From the NCBI GenBank assembly GCA_945897865.1, contig CAMDHJ010000008.1, forward strand, positions 1 through 48,681: 48,681 nt of DNA, read 5' to 3'. Below, piece by piece: positions 10,455-46,810 of the stretch. The stretch's first letter is position 1; every line of letters starts with the position of its first letter. A program made the position numbers and the translations under genes. The notes under the pieces were generated by a model. It saw only the letters and a list, made by a program, of their open reading frames with translations. It did not search any database and was not told the DNA's origin. Source of the DNA: Tepidiphilus sp. J10. Lineage in GTDB: Bacteria; Pseudomonadota; Gammaproteobacteria; Burkholderiales; Thiobacillaceae.

Positions 10455-10525
10455 CCGAGGGGGATTTAGCAACGTTTCCAGTATGCAAGCCTCAGCGAAA
10501 TCCCTGATAGAACCTCCAGCCAACC

Positions 10526-10560
10526 GACTAAGCCGCCAAACACCGGCGGCCAAGTCTCTG
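10526..10560 (+). repeat. Conserved 35-nt hairpin, copy 2
   Basis: GACTAAGCCGCCAAACACCGGCGGCCAAGTCTCTG; 31/35 identical to the reverse complement of 36269-36303. Confidence 0.75.
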
Positions 10561-10570
10561 GCTGCCCTAG

Positions 10571-28543: not shown

Positions 28544-31500
28544 TCAATCATATTCAACGCTGTAGTAGGTATCGAAACTGCTGCTCTGCTCGCCTGCCTG
28601 GGCTTCCAGGCGGACATGCGGCGTCAGTTGATAAATCACTTTCACCACCTGGCTCAGGCCATCCAGGCTTTGCTCGTAACTGAGCAAGGTGCGCGATGAC
28701 AGTCTCTTGCCGACGCTGACCACACTGCTGGCGAGATCCTGGCTGTCGCCGGCGCGCACGTCGAAGGTATCGATATTCAGGGCCTCGGCCAGCTTCGACT
28801 GGAAGTTCACCGAATCGGCCTGGCTCATCAAGGTGCCGGCGGCGATTTGCAACAGGGCGAAATCCTGTTGGACTCCAGAGTTCAAGCCGTGCCCAAGAAC
28901 TAGCCAGGACAACTTTTCGGTATCCGGCAGCGCCGGGTCGGAATACAGCGTTGCCACCGGCCGTTGCACCGTGCCGCGAACCTGCACGCCGGCGGTCACC
29001 GTGGCGGTCTTGCGCACGGCGAGCACATCAAGGCCCGGGTTGTCGATCGGGCCGATGAAGCGCAGCACGCCGCGTTCGATATTCAGTGTCTGGCCGTAGG
29101 CGGCGTAGCGGCCCTCCTCGACCCGGATGCTGCCGTCACCACGCAACTGGTTGTTGACGGTGTAGACGCGCAGTTGGCCACCCAGACGGGCATCGAATCC
29201 GGCGCCCTTGAAGAGAAAATCCTTGCCCAGGTTCAGTTTCAGATCCAGCGCCAACGGAAAGCGCTGGCTGGCCGATGGCGGGCGTGTCGGTTGGCCGACG
29301 ATCACGACGTCCGATGACAGCTGCGGCCGACTGCTGGCCGGCATTTCCAGGCGGGCGCGATCAGCGGTGAGTTCGCCGCTGAGTTGCAGGCGTTTCTGAT
29401 CCAGATTGAGCTTGGCATTGCCCGACACGATGACGCGGCGATCACTCCGGTTGTTGGCGGCGAACTTCTCGAAGCTCAACTTCAGGCCGGCGCGCGGGTT
29501 CTTCCATTCCGCTTCGCCACTGACTACAACGCGTCCGCTGCCGCCGTTCAGCACCCCTTCCTGGACACGAATCCGGTCATCCGCAAGCACCAGTTTGAGA
29601 TTGCCATCGTTGATCAAGATGCCCTCTTCCGGCATCGCGAAACGAATCCGGCTGGCATCGATGCGGCCTTCGATTTTCGGGGCTGCCAGGCTGCCGCTAC
29701 CGCTCAAAACGGCATTGAGGCTGGCATCGGCACGCATGCCGAGCGGCAGGAACGGTTTCAGCTGACGCAGATCGGCCAAATCGAATTGCGCGTTCCAGGC
29801 CAGCGGTGCGCTGCGCGGGAATTCAAAACCAACACTTGAATCACCTGCCGCACGTAACAGCGTGCCACGCGCATCGGCGTGCAACTGCCCAAGTTCGGCG
29901 CTGATTGCGTCGAGCTTGGCGGTGAGGTGATTGGCAGCCGCGTTGAGTTCGAGGCTGAGGCTGGTCAAACCCAGGTTCAATACCGGGTCGTTCAGCCGCA
30001 GATCGCCCGCTTGCCGGCGCAACCGAAACTGGCCGTCCAGCGTCTCGCCCAGGCTCAGATTCCAATCTCCATTCAGCCGCAGGTCGGTGGTGAACGGCGG
30101 CAGACTGGCTGTTGCACTTTTCAGCATCGCCAGCAACGGCGCCACCGGCAGGTTGGTCAGCGTGCCGCGACTCATGATGCGGCCTTGCTGATGGCTGAAC
30201 TGCGCCAGATTCAACTGGCCGCCGGCCAGGCTCAACGCCAGATTGTTGACCTGCTGTTGTTGGCCGGAAAGCAGCAGGCTGGCGGGTGCGGTCAGACTGA
30301 CTGGCCAATCCGCCAGCAACTCGGCACGCGTCAAGTGACCACGCCAGACCAGACTCCGCCAGGCCGAATCACGCCAAACCGGGTTAGCCAATTTGACCGG
30401 CAGGTCATCAATACCGCCAGTCAGACCGGCGCTCAAACGCCAATCGCGCCGGCGGGCGTCGAGCGACAACGTATGCGCCGAGCGCAGGCCTTTGGCGGCG
30501 ACGTCGATCTGGTCAAAAAACTGCTCCGCTAGCGCAACCCCGCGCGCTTCGATGGCGGCATTGAAAGCCCCGTTGGCGCTGGCTTGCAGGTTGAGCTGAA
30601 GATTCAGCCTGTCGGCGGCCAAGCCCCCCGGAAGCTGCAGTTTTTCGGCATCCAGCGAGGCTTCAATTGCCGGCTTCAACGGATCGCCGCTGGCGTTGCC
30701 GCTGCTGCGCACACGCCCGGCCAGACCGAGACCGCGGTTGATGTTTAAGCGCGCCAGCGCGGGCGCTTCAATCTTCCACGCCAGACGGTCGCCGGCACGA
30801 CCATAGGCACCGCTGAAGCGGGCCAGATTGCCGGCCAGATCCAGATCGATGTCGGCATCGACCAGATGCTGTTGTTCATACCGGATACGGCCGCGGCCCT
30901 TCACCGGCCGTCCTTCGAGTTCTCCCGGCGGCAAGGTGAACTCGGCAAGCAACCGCAAATCGGGCAGCAACGCGCCGCTGATCTTGCCGCGCGCATTCAA
31001 GTGCGCGGCAGGGAATTTGCCGATCCGCGCCGGGTTGATCCGGGCGGCATCGAAGCTGACGGAAATAGCGCGACTGGCATCGAGCAGCAAGCGCCCATTC
31101 GCCGCAATTTGCCCGGCCTGGCCACGGAAATCGAGACTTTCCAGATCCAGTGCAGCATCGCTGTGGGTCAGTTTGAAGTGGCCCTGACTCCAGCCCTGGC
31201 TGACATCGCCACTGATTTCAGCGCTGAGTTGCTGTCGCTCGGCATCACCGCTGAATTGCAAACCGGTCTTCAATTGCGTGGCATTCAGCGAGCCATGCAA
31301 CTCGGCCAGATTCAGCTTCTGGCTGACCAGATTCAACATCACCCGCGCACCCCGCCAACTGCCATCACCGGTCAATTGGCCGGCCGCACCCAGATCAATC
31401 AACAGAGCACTGAATTCAGCCTGGCTTGCATCGCCCACCACCGCGCCGGTCAGGTTGACCAATGGCAGACGCTGCTGGTCAAGACGGCCGGCGAGCTGAT

Positions 31501-32410
31501 TGCTCAGGCTAAAGGTGCCGAACAGGCTTTCGGCTCCTTGCGTTGCCGTTGCGGCGTTGCTTTCAACCTTGCCAGCAACCCGGCCTTCAAACAAACCGGA
31601 AAAGGCCAGGTCCGCAATCGGCGCGGCTGCGGAAAAATGGCGTGGATTGATGCCCTGCCCGCTGACCAGCAAATGCGGCAGCCGCACTTGGGCAAACGGC
31701 GCTGCTTCGCCCTGGGCCATGAACTGCATCCCCTCGGCCTTGGCCTGCAAGTTGAATGCCGGCGCCGCCAATGTGCCGCTCAATTGCACGCCCGCCCGTA
31801 CCGACAAAGGCTGCTCGCGGACCGCATCGAGCCGGCCTTGCAGCCTGAACGGCGCATCCTGACCAAGTTCGATCTCACCACGCACCGCCGCCCAGGGTGT
31901 CGTCACACTCGCCCGCGTCAGCCGATAGCGCGCATCCATCGCAGCGAGGCTGGCGCGCAGATCGTGAAATTTCAGGCTTTGCCCGGCCTGTACGATTTCC
32001 AGGCTGGCGATATCAAGTGTTCGCAGCTGCAACTCGAAGGGCAATCGCAAACTGCGCGGCAGCTCGGGCGGCGTCGGGTCGGGCTTCAGCCGGGTCAGTT
32101 GTATCGATTGCGCCGCCAGCAAATCCATGTCGACACGGCGTTGCCAGAGCGCCTGCGGCTGCCATTCAAGACGCAGATTCTCGATCTTAATCCGCTGTTG
32201 GTCGGTCGCCACGATCAATTTTCCGATACTCAGCGAACCGCACAAATCCCCCTTGACGTCGGTAAAGGCCAGACGATCCTGGCTCAGCACGCTGGCGGTT
32301 CGAGTCAGCCAGAGAAAGCCGCTTGGGCTGCTGATCATCCAGGCGACGGCGGCAAGCAACACCGTCAACAGAATGAACAACCCGGCAACCCACCAGACCA
32401 TGCGCTTCAA
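28544..32410 (-). CDS. tamB: Translocation and assembly module subunit TamB
   Basis: 1288 aa, one N-terminal TM, beta-rich body; C-terminus ...LSWLVLGHGLNSGVQQDFALLQIAAGTLM...LAEALNIDTFDVRAGDS...VVSVGKRLSSRTLLSYEQSLDG (TamB domain). Confidence 0.93.
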   Translation of the reverse strand: MKRMVWWVAGLFILLTVLLAAVAWMISSPSGFLWLTRTASVLSQDRLAFTDVKGDLCGSLSIGKLIVATDQQRIKIENLRLEWQPQALWQRRVDMDLLAAQSIQLTRLKPDPTPPELPRSLRLPFELQLRTLDIASLEIVQAGQSLKFHDLRASLAAMDARYRLTRASVTTPWAAVRGEIELGQDAPFRLQGRLDAVREQPLSVRAGVQLSGTLAAPAFNLQAKAEGMQFMAQGEAAPFAQVRLPHLLVSGQGINPRHFSAAAPIADLAFSGLFEGRVAGKVESNAATATQGAESLFGTFSLSNQLAGRLDQQRLPLVNLTGAVVGDASQAEFSALLIDLGAAGQLTGDGSWRGARVMLNLVSQKLNLAELHGSLNATQLKTGLQFSGDAERQQLSAEISGDVSQGWSQGHFKLTHSDAALDLESLDFRGQAGQIAANGRLLLDASRAISVSFDAARINPARIGKFPAAHLNARGKISGALLPDLRLLAEFTLPPGELEGRPVKGRGRIRYEQQHLVDADIDLDLAGNLARFSGAYGRAGDRLAWKIEAPALARLNINRGLGLAGRVRSSGNASGDPLKPAIEASLDAEKLQLPGGLAADRLNLQLNLQASANGAFNAAIEARGVALAEQFFDQIDVAAKGLRSAHTLSLDARRRDWRLSAGLTGGIDDLPVKLANPVWRDSAWRSLVWRGHLTRAELLADWPVSLTAPASLLLSGQQQQVNNLALSLAGGQLNLAQFSHQQGRIMSRGTLTNLPVAPLLAMLKSATASLPPFTTDLRLNGDWNLSLGETLDGQFRLRRQAGDLRLNDPVLNLGLTSLSLELNAAANHLTAKLDAISAELGQLHADARGTLLRAAGDSSVGFEFPRSAPLAWNAQFDLADLRQLKPFLPLGMRADASLNAVLSGSGSLAAPKIEGRIDASRIRFAMPEEGILINDGNLKLVLADDRIRVQEGVLNGGSGRVVVSGEAEWKNPRAGLKLSFEKFAANNRSDRRVIVSGNAKLNLDQKRLQLSGELTADRARLEMPASSRPQLSSDVVIVGQPTRPPSASQRFPLALDLKLNLGKDFLFKGAGFDARLGGQLRVYTVNNQLRGDGSIRVEEGRYAAYGQTLNIERGVLRFIGPIDNPGLDVLAVRKTATVTAGVQVRGTVQRPVATLYSDPALPDTEKLSWLVLGHGLNSGVQQDFALLQIAAGTLMSQADSVNFQSKLAEALNIDTFDVRAGDSQDLASSVVSVGKRLSSRTLLSYEQSLDGLSQVVKVIYQLTPHVRLEAQAGEQSSSFDTYYSVEYD

Positions 32411-34215
32411 AACAACACTCCGAGCGAGAAATGCAGACGCAGTTCATCGGTCGCCTCGCCATAGGCCAGGTCGAGGTTGATCGGCCCGACGGGCGAACGG
32501 TAGCGCGCGCCGACGCCATAACCGAATACTGGCGCCAGGTTTTCCGGACGATCGGCGGCATCGCCGGCATCGACGAACAACGCCATGCCCCAGTTACCGG
32601 GAAAGAAATAGTTGTATTCGACGCTACCGGTGACCAGATGCCGCACCGACGCGACACCGCCGCCTTCGGCGCGGCCCAGGCTCTGGTAAGCGTAGCCACG
32701 CACCGAGTTGTCACCGCCGGCACGGAACAGAAAGTCGGTTGGAATGCCGTCCACCGTGTCAGCCAGCACACTGCCCAGCTCACCGCGCAGAATCAGGCGA
32801 CCATTTTCACCCGCCCGAAAGTAACGGGTGTAGCGTCCTAGCAGGCGCAAAAATGAGGTATCCGACAGCACGGCTTCACTGGCGCCGCCAAGCTGTGCAT
32901 TCAGCACATCGCCTTGGCGGGGATAAAAATTGCGTCCCACCCGCCGCCGCGTCCAGCTCCAGTTGGCGCTCAACGCCTGGTTGCGCGAACTCAACAGACC
33001 ACCAACGCGTTGCTTTTCGGTCTGATATTGCAACGCGTGGGTGATTTCTATCTCACCGCCGGCATTGCTGCGCTGATTTCCCTTGATTCGGCTGCGTTTG
33101 GCAACCACCAGCGAGGTCAGCGTTTCCTGGCCTTCGATGTCTTCCTGTTCGACCTGTACACCGAGACTGTTGTCGTAGCCGTCACTATTGCGCGGCCAGG
33201 CCAGTTCGGCTGAACCATCCTGACGCTTTTCTTCTAGTTGCGACTCCAGTTTCAAGCGCAGCCCACGCTCCCGGATATTTCGATGCAGCCACGACACCTG
33301 CGCCCGCGCGCCCTGGTCGGTGCTGACACCGGCGCCGACGCTGAACAATTTCAGCGGACGTTCCACCACCTCGACCCGAATCGGCACCGCAGCCGCCAAT
33401 GCCGGGTCCGGCTCGATGCGGACCGTCGCCTGGATGTAATAGCCGCTTTCTTCCAATGCCAGCTGAAAATCGAGCAGATCCTGTTGCCGCACCGGTTGCC
33501 CCGGCTTGAGCGGGTTCAGTTTCCGAATGATCGATACCGGGTAACGTTGTTGCCCGCTGATCTGCGGCGTGCCGTAATAAAAAGCTGGGCCGCTGTCGAT
33601 GGTCAGGCTCAGATCAGCAGTTTGCGTGGCTGGGTCGATCAGCGCCTGACTCCGGCTCAACTGTGCCGCCGGATACCCCGCCGCCGACAATGGCCGCAGC
33701 ACAGCAGCTTTGGCCGCATCCCAGTCGGCCTGGCGAAACGGCATTGGCGGCTGCAAGGCGAACTGGCGTTCGATACGCGCCCGACGCCGCTGGCTGGCTT
33801 CCGCCGCTGCCGCCAAGGCACCGGAAAATTCGATGTTCACCGCGCGCACCCGCGTCAACGGCCCGGGCGATACGCTGAAACGCAACAGACTGTCGTGATC
33901 CGTGCGCGTCAGCGTGCTGTCGATCTGGGGCGAAAAATAGCCTTCCGTCGCCAGCAGTTCGCGCGCGGTTTCGAGACTTTCAGCCCGCAGCCGCACCTGT
34001 TCTTCCTCACTCAGCACCTCCCCTGAAGCCACCGCCAAACGCGCCGCGCGCGCCGCTTCAAGTTGCTGCGTCAGCAGCGGTTTGACTGCATCCGGCGCGT
34101 CAATCTCCACCGTCAGCGCGGATGCGGAACCGGCGCTGATCAACGCAAAAAGGAAAAAAAAGGAAGTACGACGCAAGGATACTGTTGTAGCAAACAGGTT
34201 CGACACGGTACGCAC
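32407..34215 (-). CDS. tamA: Outer membrane TamA (POTRA plus Omp85 barrel)
   Basis: POTRA-like repeats; FLFRAGGDNSVRGYAYQSLGRAEGGGVASVRHLVTGSVEYNYFFPGNWGMALFVDAGDA...GYGVGARYRSPVGPINLDLAYG. GTG start at 34215. Confidence 0.92.
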   Translation of the reverse strand: MRTVSNLFATTVSLRRTSFFFLFALISAGSASALTVEIDAPDAVKPLLTQQLEAARAARLAVASGEVLSEEEQVRLRAESLETARELLATEGYFSPQIDSTLTRTDHDSLLRFSVSPGPLTRVRAVNIEFSGALAAAAEASQRRRARIERQFALQPPMPFRQADWDAAKAAVLRPLSAAGYPAAQLSRSQALIDPATQTADLSLTIDSGPAFYYGTPQISGQQRYPVSIIRKLNPLKPGQPVRQQDLLDFQLALEESGYYIQATVRIEPDPALAAAVPIRVEVVERPLKLFSVGAGVSTDQGARAQVSWLHRNIRERGLRLKLESQLEEKRQDGSAELAWPRNSDGYDNSLGVQVEQEDIEGQETLTSLVVAKRSRIKGNQRSNAGGEIEITHALQYQTEKQRVGGLLSSRNQALSANWSWTRRRVGRNFYPRQGDVLNAQLGGASEAVLSDTSFLRLLGRYTRYFRAGENGRLILRGELGSVLADTVDGIPTDFLFRAGGDNSVRGYAYQSLGRAEGGGVASVRHLVTGSVEYNYFFPGNWGMALFVDAGDAADRPENLAPVFGYGVGARYRSPVGPINLDLAYGEATDELRLHFSLGVLF

Positions 34216-36173
34216 TATGACAGCTGGGCTTTCATTTCCGCCATCAGGGTGGCCGATTCAATCGGTTTCAACAACACTTTCCACTGCGACGATGTCGCGC
34301 TATTGAGCTTTACCAGATGGGTTTCCCCGGTCAGCAAGGCGGCCTTGATCGGCTGTTGGATCTGCTTTTGCAGGGCATCAAGGAACTGCAAGCCGTTCAT
34401 GCCCGGCAACCGAAAATCGACAAAGTAGAAATCCGCCTGCGCAATATCCCGGTCGGCCAGAGCTTGCTCAGCATTGCCGAACAGGGTGACGGAGATGCCA
34501 TGCGCGCCAAGAAGAATCGCAAGCGCATTGGCGGCCATTTCATCATCTTCAACCACGACCACGCGTAGCCCGGCAACACCATAGACATCTCCTGTTTGCA
34601 GCGCTGTAACCAGCGTATCGATCGCCGCCTGCTGATCAGCCGTCTTAACCGGTACAGCCGACGCAGCCGCCAACGGTACGCAGATCTCAAAGCGGGAACC
34701 GGTATTCGGGCGGGAATTGCAGCGAATCCGGCAATCCAGAATATTGGCCAACCGCTTGACGATGGATAAACCGAGGCCGAGGCCTTGCGACCTGTCGCGC
34801 TGCGGGTTGCCGATCTGGACGTATTCATCGAACACCGATTCCAACAGGTTGGGCGCGATGCCGATTCCGGTATCCCAGACCTGGATCAGGACATGCTCGC
34901 CGCGGCGACGGAAGCCGACCAGCACACCGCCGGTCTCGGTGTACTTGATGGCATTGTCGATGATGTTGCGCAGCAGGCTGTAGAGCAACTTGGCATCGGT
35001 GAACAGTTTCAGTTCGTTTGCAGGGAAGAAGAACTTGAAGCGCAAGCCCTTGGCCATTGCCAGTGGCGCAAACTCCGCTTCAATTTGGCTCAGCAGAACG
35101 TCCGCGCCAACGATTTGAGGATGCGGCTGCACCTGGCCGCCGTCCAGCCGCGAGACATCAAGCAATGCGTTCAGGATATCCGCCAGACTGCGGGTCGACA
35201 GCGTCAGGTAGTTGGCAATGCGGCGCTGCTCGTCATTCAACGCCGAACTGACCAGAGTTTCCAGAAACAGGCGCATGGCATGGATCGGCTGCCGCAAGTC
35301 ATGGCTGGCGGCGGCGAGAAAACGTGTCTTGGCGGCATTCGCCGTATCCGCCGAATCCTTCGCCGCGAGGAGTTCCGCCGTCCGCTTTGCAACCAGACGT
35401 TCCAGTTCTTCATGTTGTCTTTGCAGCAAAGACCTGCTGGCTCCGACCTCCGCCAGCAAGGCGTTGAAATTGCGCACCAGGTCGCCAATTTCATTGTCCG
35501 CGATGGGAATTTCACGCGGCGTGAAATCATGCTGCAGACGCGCATCGTTAGCCGCCTCCTCCAGCATGCGAACCGGCAGAATGATGCGATTGAGAAAACG
35601 CATCGCCAGCACCAGGGCGAATCCGCCCGCAATGATGGCAATTAAAAAAGTGCTCGCAATGGAAGTGAAATAGCTCTGCCAATAGCGGCCAAGCTGCGCC
35701 TTGATAAAGATGCTGCCAACCTGCGCGGCGTCAACCACGATCGGCAACTGCATCGTCGCGGTATCGGCCAGCATCGCGATCTGGCTTGGTGGTGAGGTGC
35801 TTGGGGGTGCGTTGATGACGGGCACACTGATGGGAAGCTGCTTTGCATCGCCATACACGGCAAGGCGCACGCCGGCGTCGGTGAACAGTGCGGCGGCTTC
35901 GACTTCCGGGTAAGCCTCGAACATGCGCAACACGGTTTGCGCAACTCGCTGGTCCTTGAACACAACCGCCGCGCTGGCGGCCGTTCCCGCCGCATTGGCG
36001 GCGCTCGACAAATTTCGCTGGATGTCCTCGCGCAAACTGTCCAACCGCAACACCGCATTGCTCAGCAGCCCAAGTACGATGCCGATCAGAATCGCCGCAA
36101 TGATCAGTCTGGCCAGCGGATAACGGATCGAGCGTCGATCGAACAAGGAACGCTGAGTGGAACGGCTATTCAA
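34215..36173 (-). CDS. Hybrid sensor histidine kinase with C-terminal REC; CHASE8/YfiN-like sensor region
   Basis: LREDIQRNLSSAANAAGTAASAAVVFKDQRVAQTVLRMFEAYPEVEAAALFTDAGVRLAVYG; HAMP; FLAAASHDLRQPIHAMRLFLETL; WDTGIGIAPNLLESVFDEYVQ; REC VVVEDDEMAANAL...FVDFRLPGMNGLQFL...LLKPI. A TTG start at 36173 is plausible. Confidence 0.88.
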   Translation of the reverse strand: MNSRSTQRSLFDRRSIRYPLARLIIAAILIGIVLGLLSNAVLRLDSLREDIQRNLSSAANAAGTAASAAVVFKDQRVAQTVLRMFEAYPEVEAAALFTDAGVRLAVYGDAKQLPISVPVINAPPSTSPPSQIAMLADTATMQLPIVVDAAQVGSIFIKAQLGRYWQSYFTSIASTFLIAIIAGGFALVLAMRFLNRIILPVRMLEEAANDARLQHDFTPREIPIADNEIGDLVRNFNALLAEVGASRSLLQRQHEELERLVAKRTAELLAAKDSADTANAAKTRFLAAASHDLRQPIHAMRLFLETLVSSALNDEQRRIANYLTLSTRSLADILNALLDVSRLDGGQVQPHPQIVGADVLLSQIEAEFAPLAMAKGLRFKFFFPANELKLFTDAKLLYSLLRNIIDNAIKYTETGGVLVGFRRRGEHVLIQVWDTGIGIAPNLLESVFDEYVQIGNPQRDRSQGLGLGLSIVKRLANILDCRIRCNSRPNTGSRFEICVPLAAASAVPVKTADQQAAIDTLVTALQTGDVYGVAGLRVVVVEDDEMAANALAILLGAHGISVTLFGNAEQALADRDIAQADFYFVDFRLPGMNGLQFLDALQKQIQQPIKAALLTGETHLVKLNSATSSQWKVLLKPIESATLMAEMKAQLS

Positions 36174-36468
36174 CCTTGATTCCTCTGTTGAACGAGTCCG
36201 AGTGTGGGCCTGCCAGGTTGGCAGGCAAGGCGCGACGACGCGCGGGGCCGCTCCCCGCAAGGATCAGCAGGGACTTGGCCGCCGTCTTTTGGCGGCTTAG
36301 TCCTTCGCTTAGTAGTTTCATCAGGAGCAACGCGGCCAGACGACATGGCAGACCCGCAATCGGACGCGTAGCGGGGCAATCTGATTGGTGAATTTGACCG
36401 GAGGCGCTAACGCTTGTATTCATGGGACGTCTCGAAGGCGAGAAGCGGTCGCGAGAGGATTCAAGGTT
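36169..36468 (-). mobile_element. ~300-bp ORF-poor hairpin-rich element with near-terminal inverted repeats (MITE-like or mobile structured RNA)
   Basis: Inverted arms aaccttgattcctct (36172-36186) and agaggattcaaggtt (36454-36468), 14/15 match; four strong stems between 36208 and 36303; outer 36 nt repeated exactly at 46775-46810. Confidence 0.65.
36268..36303 (-). repeat. Conserved 35-nt hairpin, copy 1
   Basis: Minus strand GACTAAGCCGCCAAAAGACGGCGGCCAAGTCCCTG; GCCGCC/GGCGGC stem plus GAC/GTC outer stem. Confidence 0.75.
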
Positions 36469-37003
36469 CATGAACATTGCGCGCCAGACGCAACATTTGC
36501 GGCGAAAAATGGAAACCTGCGCGGCGTGCCTGGGCAAGGTTGATATCAAACCGGATGCCGTCATCCTGCCGCACGATTTCGATCATCCCGTCTTCCTCGG
36601 CAAAGCCGGCATAGGTGCTGATGGTCAGCGCACCACGCAACGCCGGATGCATCGCCAGCGCGTTCCAACGCTGGCGTGAATCGACGTAAAACACCTGGCA
36701 GTCGCCATTGCGCAGCGCGAAATCGATGACGCGCAATTCACGGCCCGCCACCTTGCGGCCAGAAAGCGCGGCCAAAGCTTCCGCCTGGCGGTTGTCGCGG
36801 ACACCAAAACAAACCTGGATAACGCCTGATTTTTCGACGCCTTGGCCGGGAAATTCAGTGAACTTGAGGAAGTTGAACAGCATCGCGCTGCGCATTGACT
36901 GTTCGCCGGGCAATTCATCGGCGGCGGCGGGCCGAAGCACGCTCAAGCACACGCCAAGCATGATCAAGGCAATCCTGCGGAAGCGCTTCATGAGACCGGA
37001 CAT
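36461..37003 (-). CDS. YfiR/DUF4154-like periplasmic protein
   Basis: MKRFRRIALIMLGVCLSVLRPAAADELPGEQSMRSAMLFNFLKFTEFPG...VCFGVRDNRQAEALAALSGRKVAGRELRVIDF...FYVDSRQRWNALAMHPALRGALTISTYAGFAEEDGMIEIVRQDDGIRFDINLAQARRAGFHFSPQMLRLA. Confidence 0.87.
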   Translation of the reverse strand: MSGLMKRFRRIALIMLGVCLSVLRPAAADELPGEQSMRSAMLFNFLKFTEFPGQGVEKSGVIQVCFGVRDNRQAEALAALSGRKVAGRELRVIDFALRNGDCQVFYVDSRQRWNALAMHPALRGALTISTYAGFAEEDGMIEIVRQDDGIRFDINLAQARRAGFHFSPQMLRLARNVHEP

Positions 37004-37005
37004 GC

Positions 37006-39000
37006 CTAGAACGCGTACTTTGTTTCCAGGTAGAAACTCCGTTCAGGTAACGGCAAACCATCCAGAAGCGGCGCGCTGAGCTCGCGTGCATCCTCATCAA
37101 ACAGGTTCCTGATGGAAGCCGAAAAATCCCAACGCTTGTGTGCCGAATAGTGCAGCGTGGTATCAACCAGGTTGTATGCGCTCAATCCAGCCCGCTTGCC
37201 GATCATGTTGGCCTGCAGGTTCCAGCTCCATCCGGGCGAAAAAGCCCAATCTGCGCGCAAATAGGCCTTTTCCCACGGTACCGACTTGGGAAAGGTTGTA
37301 TCCGACTCATTGATATGCGCCAGATTGCCGGCCAACCGCAGTGTCTTGGCAGCCTGCCACTGCGCTTCCAGTTCAACGCCCCGTGAAGTCCGGTTACCCG
37401 AATTATGGAATTTTCCAGCCACTGCATGTGTGATCAGGTTGGTCTGTTTGAATTGATACAGGACGAGTCCGAGTTTGAAACTCTTTGCTGCCGCGTAATT
37501 GAAAGACAAATCCCAGGTATTTGAACGCTCCGGCGTCAGGTTCGGATTTGGCGTGGTGGCTGCGGTTTGCGCATAAAGCTCAAGATACGATGGTGCCCGA
37601 AAAGCCTGGCCATACATCAGCTTGGTGGTGAGCCGCTCCGAGCTCTGCCAGAGCAGCGCCAGACGCGGGTTCAGGCTGTCGCCGAAATCGGAGTAATGAT
37701 CGTAGCGCGCACCTGCGGTCAGCTCCCAGTCCGGCGCCAGGTTCCAGATATCCTGCAGGTAGAGGTAGCTGACCTGGCGGACTTTTTCCGGCGCAAAGGC
37801 ATACGGCGAATCCGTAAGATCGACCAATGGTGAGCCGGGCGGCAGCGTATTTCCGTCTGGTCCGATGCCGAAATTAACCTGCTGCTCGACCGCATACAAA
37901 TCCTTCACGCCAAAACCGCCCCCCAAACGGATGGCATGCTGTTGAAAGCCGGTATACAGGCCACTGACTTCAGCTCGCAGCCCGCGTTCGCTCGATTGCA
38001 TGCGGTTGATTTGCCCGGGACTTTCCTGAAATCCATCGCCCGAACTGTAGTCAAGGTTGGAATAACGCAACTCGGCATTCAGCCCCCAATCCCGGCTGAA
38101 AGACTCATCGTTGAACAGCAGTGCGACATCAAATCGGTTGTCGCGCGCATGGGTAAGCGGGTCCAGCACCCCGTAGCCAGACATTCCGGTTTCCAGATTG
38201 CGGTGGCCCATGTAGTCGGCCAGCAAACGCCAGTTCTGTCTGGCCATGGAGAAACGAATATCCTGGCCTTGCCAGCCATACCCCGCTGTTCCGCTTGCCG
38301 CCAAACCGTCCCTGGAGATGAAGGGTGCGTGACCGTCAGTGCGCGAGAGTTCGGCGGTCAATCCAATGTCAAAACCGTTCCACGTTCCGCCACGCCGCAC
38401 CCAGCCCGCTTGCGTGTCGAAACTGCCCGCCCGCAAACCCGCCTCGGACTGTTCGATGCGGCCGGCGGTCCGGGTAATCACATTGATCACGCCGGCAGAG
38501 GCATCCGAGCCGAACAATGCGGTACCCGGGCCGCGAATGATCTCGACGCGTTCGATCATGCTGGCCGGCAATCCCTTCCAGAAGGCGCCGGATGACCAGA
38601 CCAGATCACGCATCGGCTCGCCATTCACCATCAGCAAGGTGTGGGTACCCGCCGCACCGCGAAACGTCACTTGCGGCCGAAATGCGAACAGATTGGCCCT
38701 GACATAAATGCCGGGCACGCTTTGCAGAATTTCCGCCAGATTGGTCGCCCCGGTGGCCCGGATGTCTTCCGCCGTGATGACGGACACCACGGAGGGCGCT
38801 TTCGAAAGTGTCTGCTCGGTATTGGTGGAAATCCGGATCTTCAGCGACAGCAGGTCTTCCATACTCAGCGCCAACAATCGATCGAGTTCCGTCTCGGCAT
38901 GCACCGGCGCACTCAACAGCAGGCAGGTTGCCAGGAGTCGGGTCACGGCTGTGGTCACGACTGGGGTCACGGCTAGAGACACTGTTGCACGCTTGTTCAC
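37006..39000 (-). CDS. TonB-dependent outer membrane receptor
   Basis: SKAPSVVSVITAEDIRATGATNLAEILQSVPGIYVR plug; IERVEIIRGPGTALFGSDASAGVINVITR; C-terminal barrel ending FYLETKYAF. GTG start at 39000. Confidence 0.93.
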   Translation of the reverse strand: MNKRATVSLAVTPVVTTAVTRLLATCLLLSAPVHAETELDRLLALSMEDLLSLKIRISTNTEQTLSKAPSVVSVITAEDIRATGATNLAEILQSVPGIYVRANLFAFRPQVTFRGAAGTHTLLMVNGEPMRDLVWSSGAFWKGLPASMIERVEIIRGPGTALFGSDASAGVINVITRTAGRIEQSEAGLRAGSFDTQAGWVRRGGTWNGFDIGLTAELSRTDGHAPFISRDGLAASGTAGYGWQGQDIRFSMARQNWRLLADYMGHRNLETGMSGYGVLDPLTHARDNRFDVALLFNDESFSRDWGLNAELRYSNLDYSSGDGFQESPGQINRMQSSERGLRAEVSGLYTGFQQHAIRLGGGFGVKDLYAVEQQVNFGIGPDGNTLPPGSPLVDLTDSPYAFAPEKVRQVSYLYLQDIWNLAPDWELTAGARYDHYSDFGDSLNPRLALLWQSSERLTTKLMYGQAFRAPSYLELYAQTAATTPNPNLTPERSNTWDLSFNYAAAKSFKLGLVLYQFKQTNLITHAVAGKFHNSGNRTSRGVELEAQWQAAKTLRLAGNLAHINESDTTFPKSVPWEKAYLRADWAFSPGWSWNLQANMIGKRAGLSAYNLVDTTLHYSAHKRWDFSASIRNLFDEDARELSAPLLDGLPLPERSFYLETKYAF

Positions 39001-39052
39001 GTCATTTTTCCCTGTACTTTTGCCACATTTTCCCTGAAAAACGTCAGATTCC

Positions 39053-39108
39053 GTAGGGTGAGCCGTGCGCACCATCCAGCGTCAAGCGGTGCGCACGGCG
39101 CACCCTAC
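39053..39108. repeat. GTAGG...CCTAC palindrome, family B
   Basis: gtagggtgagccgtgcgcacc...ggtgcgcacggcgcaccctac. Confidence 0.88.
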
Positions 39109-46767: not shown

Positions 46768-46774
46768 CGGCGCT

Positions 46775-46810
46775 CACTCGGACTCGTTCAACAGAGGAAT
46801 CAAGGTTGAA
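46775..46810 (+). repeat. 36-nt exact copy of the end of the 36.2-36.5 kb element
   Basis: CACTCGGACTCGTTCAACAGAGGAATCAAGGTTGAA; identical to the reverse complement of 36169-36204. Confidence 0.9.

Follow-up and report, generated by a model that had tools for sequence, protein, structure and literature searches.

The interval at positions 36174-36466 of the window is one copy of a 234-bp family of miniature inverted-repeat transposable elements (MITEs). The window is the whole stretch that was analysed, 48,681 nucleotides of contig C8 in the draft genome of Tepidiphilus sp. J10 (3.89 Mb, 86% complete). Most likely, the MITE was inserted by an IS1380-like reaction at the point where the stop codon of a yfiR-like gene overlapped the start codon of a hybrid kinase gene, both signals were retained, and a 60-bp element was later nested in it. 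The locus is a natural case, with the states before, between and after in related genomes, of a transposon that breaks an overlapping gene pair and itself supplies the missing signals. An earlier note, made from the sequence alone, had proposed a single structured mobile element at this place; the present analysis refines it, in that two nested elements are present, the target was the overlapping stop/start, and the duplication and the terminal inverted repeat (TIR) together kept the signals of both genes.

The genes are arranged on the minus strand in the order TonB-dependent receptor, yfiR, CHASE8 hybrid kinase, tamA and tamB (Table 1), and the junctions other than yfiR/kinase are overlapping or a few bases apart. 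The gap between yfiR and the kinase gene, its inverted arms and its hairpins were all found at the positions given before, and the arms turned out to be the outer portion of 17-bp TIRs. The ORF at 36166-36564, which had been suspected to be spurious, found no support. Neither a sigma-70-like promoter nor an intrinsic terminator was seen in the yfiR/kinase interval, thus transcription probably runs through it.

Table 1. Features of the window around the MITE copy and related repeats elsewhere in it
Feature	Position	Strand	Remark
TonB-dependent receptor gene	37006-39075	-	
yfiR-like gene (DUF4154)	36461-36991	-	stop within right TIR, one proline codon added
Right target-site duplication TTCAT	36467-36471	+	ATGAA on minus strand
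Right TIR CGCGAGAGGATTCAAGG	36450-36466	+	contains yfiR TGA stop
MITE copy, 293 bp (233-bp element and 60-bp nested insert)	36174-36466	+	same-end copies across genome and genus; empty orthologous sites
Nested 60-bp hairpin element	36264-36323	+	at MITE position 90; without target duplication
Left TIR CCTTGATTCCTCTGTTG	36174-36190	+	AGAGGA (Shine-Dalgarno-like) on minus strand
Left target-site duplication TTCAA	36169-36173	+	minus strand TTGAA holds kinase TTG; ancestral ATGAA
CHASE8 hybrid histidine kinase gene	34215-36173	-	likely start TTG at 36173
Omp85/TamA gene	32407-34215	-	
TamB gene	28544-32410	-	
Lone left-end fragment belonging to this MITE family	46769-46810	-	
Second copy of the 60-bp hairpin family	10504-10565	-	beside CCCCCC..GGGGGG hairpin; covariance model E 7.6e-19

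The MITE family and the yfiR/kinase junction

A sequence search with the interval returned dozens of dispersed matches in the own genome, matches in 20 of 22 genomes of the same genus, and thin matches in the wider family. Aligned copies had 17-bp TIRs with precise common ends and were flanked by 5-bp direct repeats. Among 48 full-length copies with the common TIR type, taken from the own and related genomes, the 5-bp flanks were identical in 29 and agreed at four or more of the five positions in 42, compared with 6% and 31%, respectively, in a null of mismatched flanks. The consensus of the 5-bp target duplication was WTNAW. The family occurs in lengths of 234 and 294 bp, with no transposase gene and no supported internal ORF. 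In the window, the two duplication copies differ by one base (TTCAA/TTCAT), and the right TIR is mutated in its inner 4 nt, which read CGCG instead of the CAAC that is intact in the orthologue of the sister genome G018.

In six congeners, all of which have retained the two genes, the orthologous kinase/yfiR junction lacks the element. With the dispersed copies, TIRs and target duplications, these empty junctions bear out the non-autonomous element that had been proposed; the opposite picture, the same sequence in place in distant relatives and no copies elsewhere, does not apply. In most congeners, the empty junction reads CATGAATAG, where yfiR ends with CAT GAA TAG and the kinase gene starts with ATG AAT AGC, an overlap of 8 nt. 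The orthologous site of G018 has the same MITE, inserted after the duplicated ATGAA, without the nested 60 bp. In the window, yfiR now ends with CAT GAA CCT TGA, that is, with one added proline and a TGA in the TIR. The duplicated ATGAA on the kinase side reads TTGAA in both the window species and G018, so the kinase most likely starts at this TTG. The earlier note had placed the stop and the start codon inside the arms: the TGA (36461-36463) is in the right arm as described, but the TTG (36171-36173) is in the left duplication, just outside the element. A Shine-Dalgarno-like AGAGGA on the minus strand of the left TIR precedes the TTG by 7 nt, and is a candidate ribosome-binding site of the kinase.

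The following course of events best explains these observations. The MITE entered a 5-bp target, TTCAT (ATGAA on the coding strand), probably by a transposition reaction of the IS1380 kind, and did so at the exact spot of the overlap between the stop codon of yfiR and the start codon of the kinase gene. The insertion duplicated ATGAA on both sides, so that yfiR kept its last codons and the kinase gene its start codon, while yfiR came to end at the TGA borne by the TIR, gaining one proline. The kinase start, originally ATG, had become TTG by the time the window species and G018 split, and AGAGGA in the TIR, upstream of the start, would swap translational coupling for independent initiation. Later, and in the window lineage only, the 60-bp hairpin element would have been inserted near the tip of the MITE palindrome.

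The nested 60-bp hairpin element

The hairpins had been positioned rightly, but the one at 36268-36303 was reassigned from the MITE to a separate nested element, and the single element pictured before is resolved into two, since the G018 orthologue has no such 60 bp. Outside the insert, the MITE copies of the window and G018 differ at 1/90 and 5/143 positions. The 60 bp consist of a hairpin, TAAGC..GGACT..GCCGCC / GGCGGC..AGTCC..GCTTA, and a tail ending TTTCATCA, and are a repeat family of their own, found by DNA search in 16 of 23 genomes of the genus. With a covariance model, up to 42 copies per genome were found in the genus; outside it, two further genera of the family had a few copies, and one genome from another family of the same order had 29. 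The pairs of the stem covary (40 two-sided cells compared with 15.4 after shuffling, 0/500), a comparison to which a caveat of relatedness applies.

Full-length 294-bp copies have the insert at MITE position 90 without exception. When its presence was mapped on a tree built from 34 MITE cores, 11 changes were required, of which supported branches force at least 8, and the number of changes was no smaller than with shuffled labels. Other repeats (GTAGCCCGGATGCAGCG..CGGAATCCGGG) also carry the 60 bp, which further occur adjacent to CCCCC..GGGGG hairpins, within copies of themselves and, in one MITE, twice; many copies have a small hairpin immediately on their 5ʹ side. The pattern is most simply read as repeated insertion that favours one nucleotide and makes no target duplication. 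An ancestral 294-bp MITE that lost the insert precisely many times, or ectopic gene conversion between MITE copies, could instead account for the constant position in the 294-bp copies, and repeat copies in one genome can recombine. Precise loss, however, finds no flanking direct repeat that would allow it. Moreover, the inserts are 97% alike while their host MITEs are 80% alike, with the insert being the more similar part in 136/136 pairs; the window copy matches the empty G018 copy right up to the insertion point; and the occurrence in unrelated repeats and within itself also argues against loss or conversion, which we therefore regard as rather improbable. A copy with an insert in the own genome (L002) was considered as a conversion donor and judged unlikely, because its insert is less like that of the window than are inserts of other genomes. 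On the reading of repeated insertion, the 60 bp of the window would have been gained, and a very short hairpin, present in well over 150 copies within a single genus, would land time and again at the same nucleotide of a different repeat; how minimal palindromic repeats move in bacteria becomes directly testable.

The notion that the element inserts into hairpin loops was dropped as a visual impression, since the two flanks of the insert paired above the 95% level in 4 of 34 contexts, which is not clearly more than mismatched flanks do. RAYT genes are unsupported as its mobilisers: 30 RAYT loci, searched by BLAST and the covariance model, gave a single weak hit (E 0.003). In genome G010 (L206, L207, L204), the 60-bp hairpin forms nested arrays, in which copies were inserted at the same internal point of others.

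The probable transposase family and the strong fold

The MITE ends, CCTwGAwTC, with the 5-bp duplication match the pattern of the IS1380 family, in comparison with elements of the same order and with ISEcp1. The IS1380-family elements that we delimited in the order have ends of the form CC[CT]nGA[AT]T and duplications CTAA, CTAG, TTAA, TTAAT, TTCAT and CTCAT; ISEcp1, a member of the family, has the IRL CCTAGATTCTACGT (PMC7864471) and makes 5-bp duplications (PMC2887853). These likenesses suggest that the MITE was derived from, or is moved by, an IS1380-type transposase. No IS1380 gene was found in the own 86% complete genome, none of the IS1380 loci read in the genus and order had the TIRs of the MITE, and a GTDB-wide scan with an IS1380 alignment yielded five loci, none with the same TIR. 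This lack of an autonomous partner speaks for mobilisation by a transposase from outside the IS1380 family, such as a Tn3-like or an unclassified enzyme, as does the fact that further families also make duplications of 5 bp. The ends of Tn2/Tn3 are, however, 38 bp long and start with GGGG (PMC7864471), whereas those of the MITE fit the IS1380 pattern and lack the 38-bp ends starting with GGGG by which Tn3-derived TIMEs are recognised; we consider a transposase of another family unlikely. At locus L126, an IS1380 gene apparently ending in a MITE end was rejected as a candidate, since about 100 bp separate the end of the transposase remnant from a 53-bp mini element that is distinct from it, with conserved gene sequence between the two.

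The other question is whether the interval was retained for its fold. The MITE is one long palindrome. Folding and covariation were analyzed: the 293 bp as single-stranded DNA folded better than 200/200 dinucleotide shuffles (z -4.64), and two-sided changes were seen in 27/62 predicted pairs across MITE copies. Both results would agree with a structured regulatory RNA or a leader of the kinase. Such a role is nevertheless very unlikely, because congeners with both genes have the same junction without the element, unrelated loci also hold copies, any element with TIRs is inherently palindromic, and the interval had no family match in Rfam, the only hit being at chance level (E 4.8). The fold fits hairpin-forming mobile DNA and alone is no argument for a functional RNA. 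The mobile structured RNA that the earlier note had entertained is neither shown nor needed.

MITE ends as possible translation signals, and related elements

We asked how often MITE junctions open genes. A start codon in the duplication opened an ORF of at least 150 codons in 9/56 usable sides, compared with 6-7.5% of comparable sites; with ATG starts only, the count was 6/56 sides compared with about 3.7%. The enrichment is modest and the sample is small. Several of these ORFs are real proteins with fitting N-termini, among them a phosphonate-binding protein (signal-like N-terminus), a response regulator with PAS domains and a bacterial sugar transferase. Nothing direct was found in the literature on MITEs supplying ribosome-binding sites. 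It is possible, and we propose it tentatively, that the ends of the host MITE act as a putative cassette of stop, Shine-Dalgarno and start signals, which would allow entry into overlapping operon junctions without breaking either gene (WTNAW includes ATGAA and ATGAT), and that the covarying 60-bp hairpin is a mobile element in its own right, which makes no target duplication and enters the MITE palindrome close to its tip, at a single fixed nucleotide, as well as sites next to other hairpins and within its own copies.

The MITE resembles IS1380 elements such as ISEcp1 and IS-derived MITEs in its ends (CCTAGATTC.. and CC[CT]nGA[AT]T), in AT-rich duplications of 4-5 bp, and in the existence of non-autonomous copies with common TIRs. 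It differs in that no transposase with identical TIRs was found in the own draft or among the IS1380 loci read in the genus and order, and in that the interiors here are long palindromes, some with REPINs or the 60-bp hairpin. ERIC elements are reportedly, after Wilson and Sharp in 2006, found with insertions of about 70 bp at specific internal sites. They are likewise palindromic intergenic repeats that take a short insert at fixed internal positions, but their sequence and lineage are different, and the insert of the MITE forms a repeat family independent of its host, which has classical TIRs and 5-bp duplications. REP/REPIN elements, which are moved by RAYT transposases (PMC3116915), share with the 60-bp hairpin the nature of short multi-copy hairpins without target duplication, and RAYT genes are present in the genus. 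The 60-bp hairpin, in contrast, has no constant GTAG foot, the position reading TAG, GGG, AAG, TTG and others, and apart from the one weak hit it was not found next to the RAYT genes of the 30 loci searched. QMITEs of Coxiella burnetii extend a gene and supply or precede its stop codon (PMC5896051), as the MITE does for yfiR; the MITE of the window, in addition, came between a stop and a start that had overlapped, and the duplication and TIR kept both signals.

Some further mobile elements were noticed. Genome G019, in which the yfiR/kinase junction is empty, has another member of the MITE family in this same locus, immediately downstream of the kinase gene (L093, 1110-1344). A sibling MITE family of 141 bp (L031-L047 of the own genome and others) has ends and duplications of the same type and a REPIN interior; this REPIN is a true RAYT-associated one, as two congeners (L246, L252) have RAYT genes flanked by the same REPs. 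A hybrid MITE in the own genome (L058, 1836-2040, contig C46) combines one end of the window's family and some of its body with an internal REP pair of another, GTAGGAGCGCCTTCC, type. In G010, an inverted repeat CTGGCAGCCTGTCGGACTTTGG of about 160 bp (L123, about 1800-1975) lies beside an IS1380 remnant, and is possibly another small mobile element. In each of the five occurrences seen, a group II intron starts immediately behind the AGG that terminates an IS1380-like end of MITE type, at loci that were picked for MITEs and hence are biased (L043, L044, L045, L065 and L069, on own-genome contigs C99, C117, C150, C190 and C170; Rfam RF02005 on L044 and L069).
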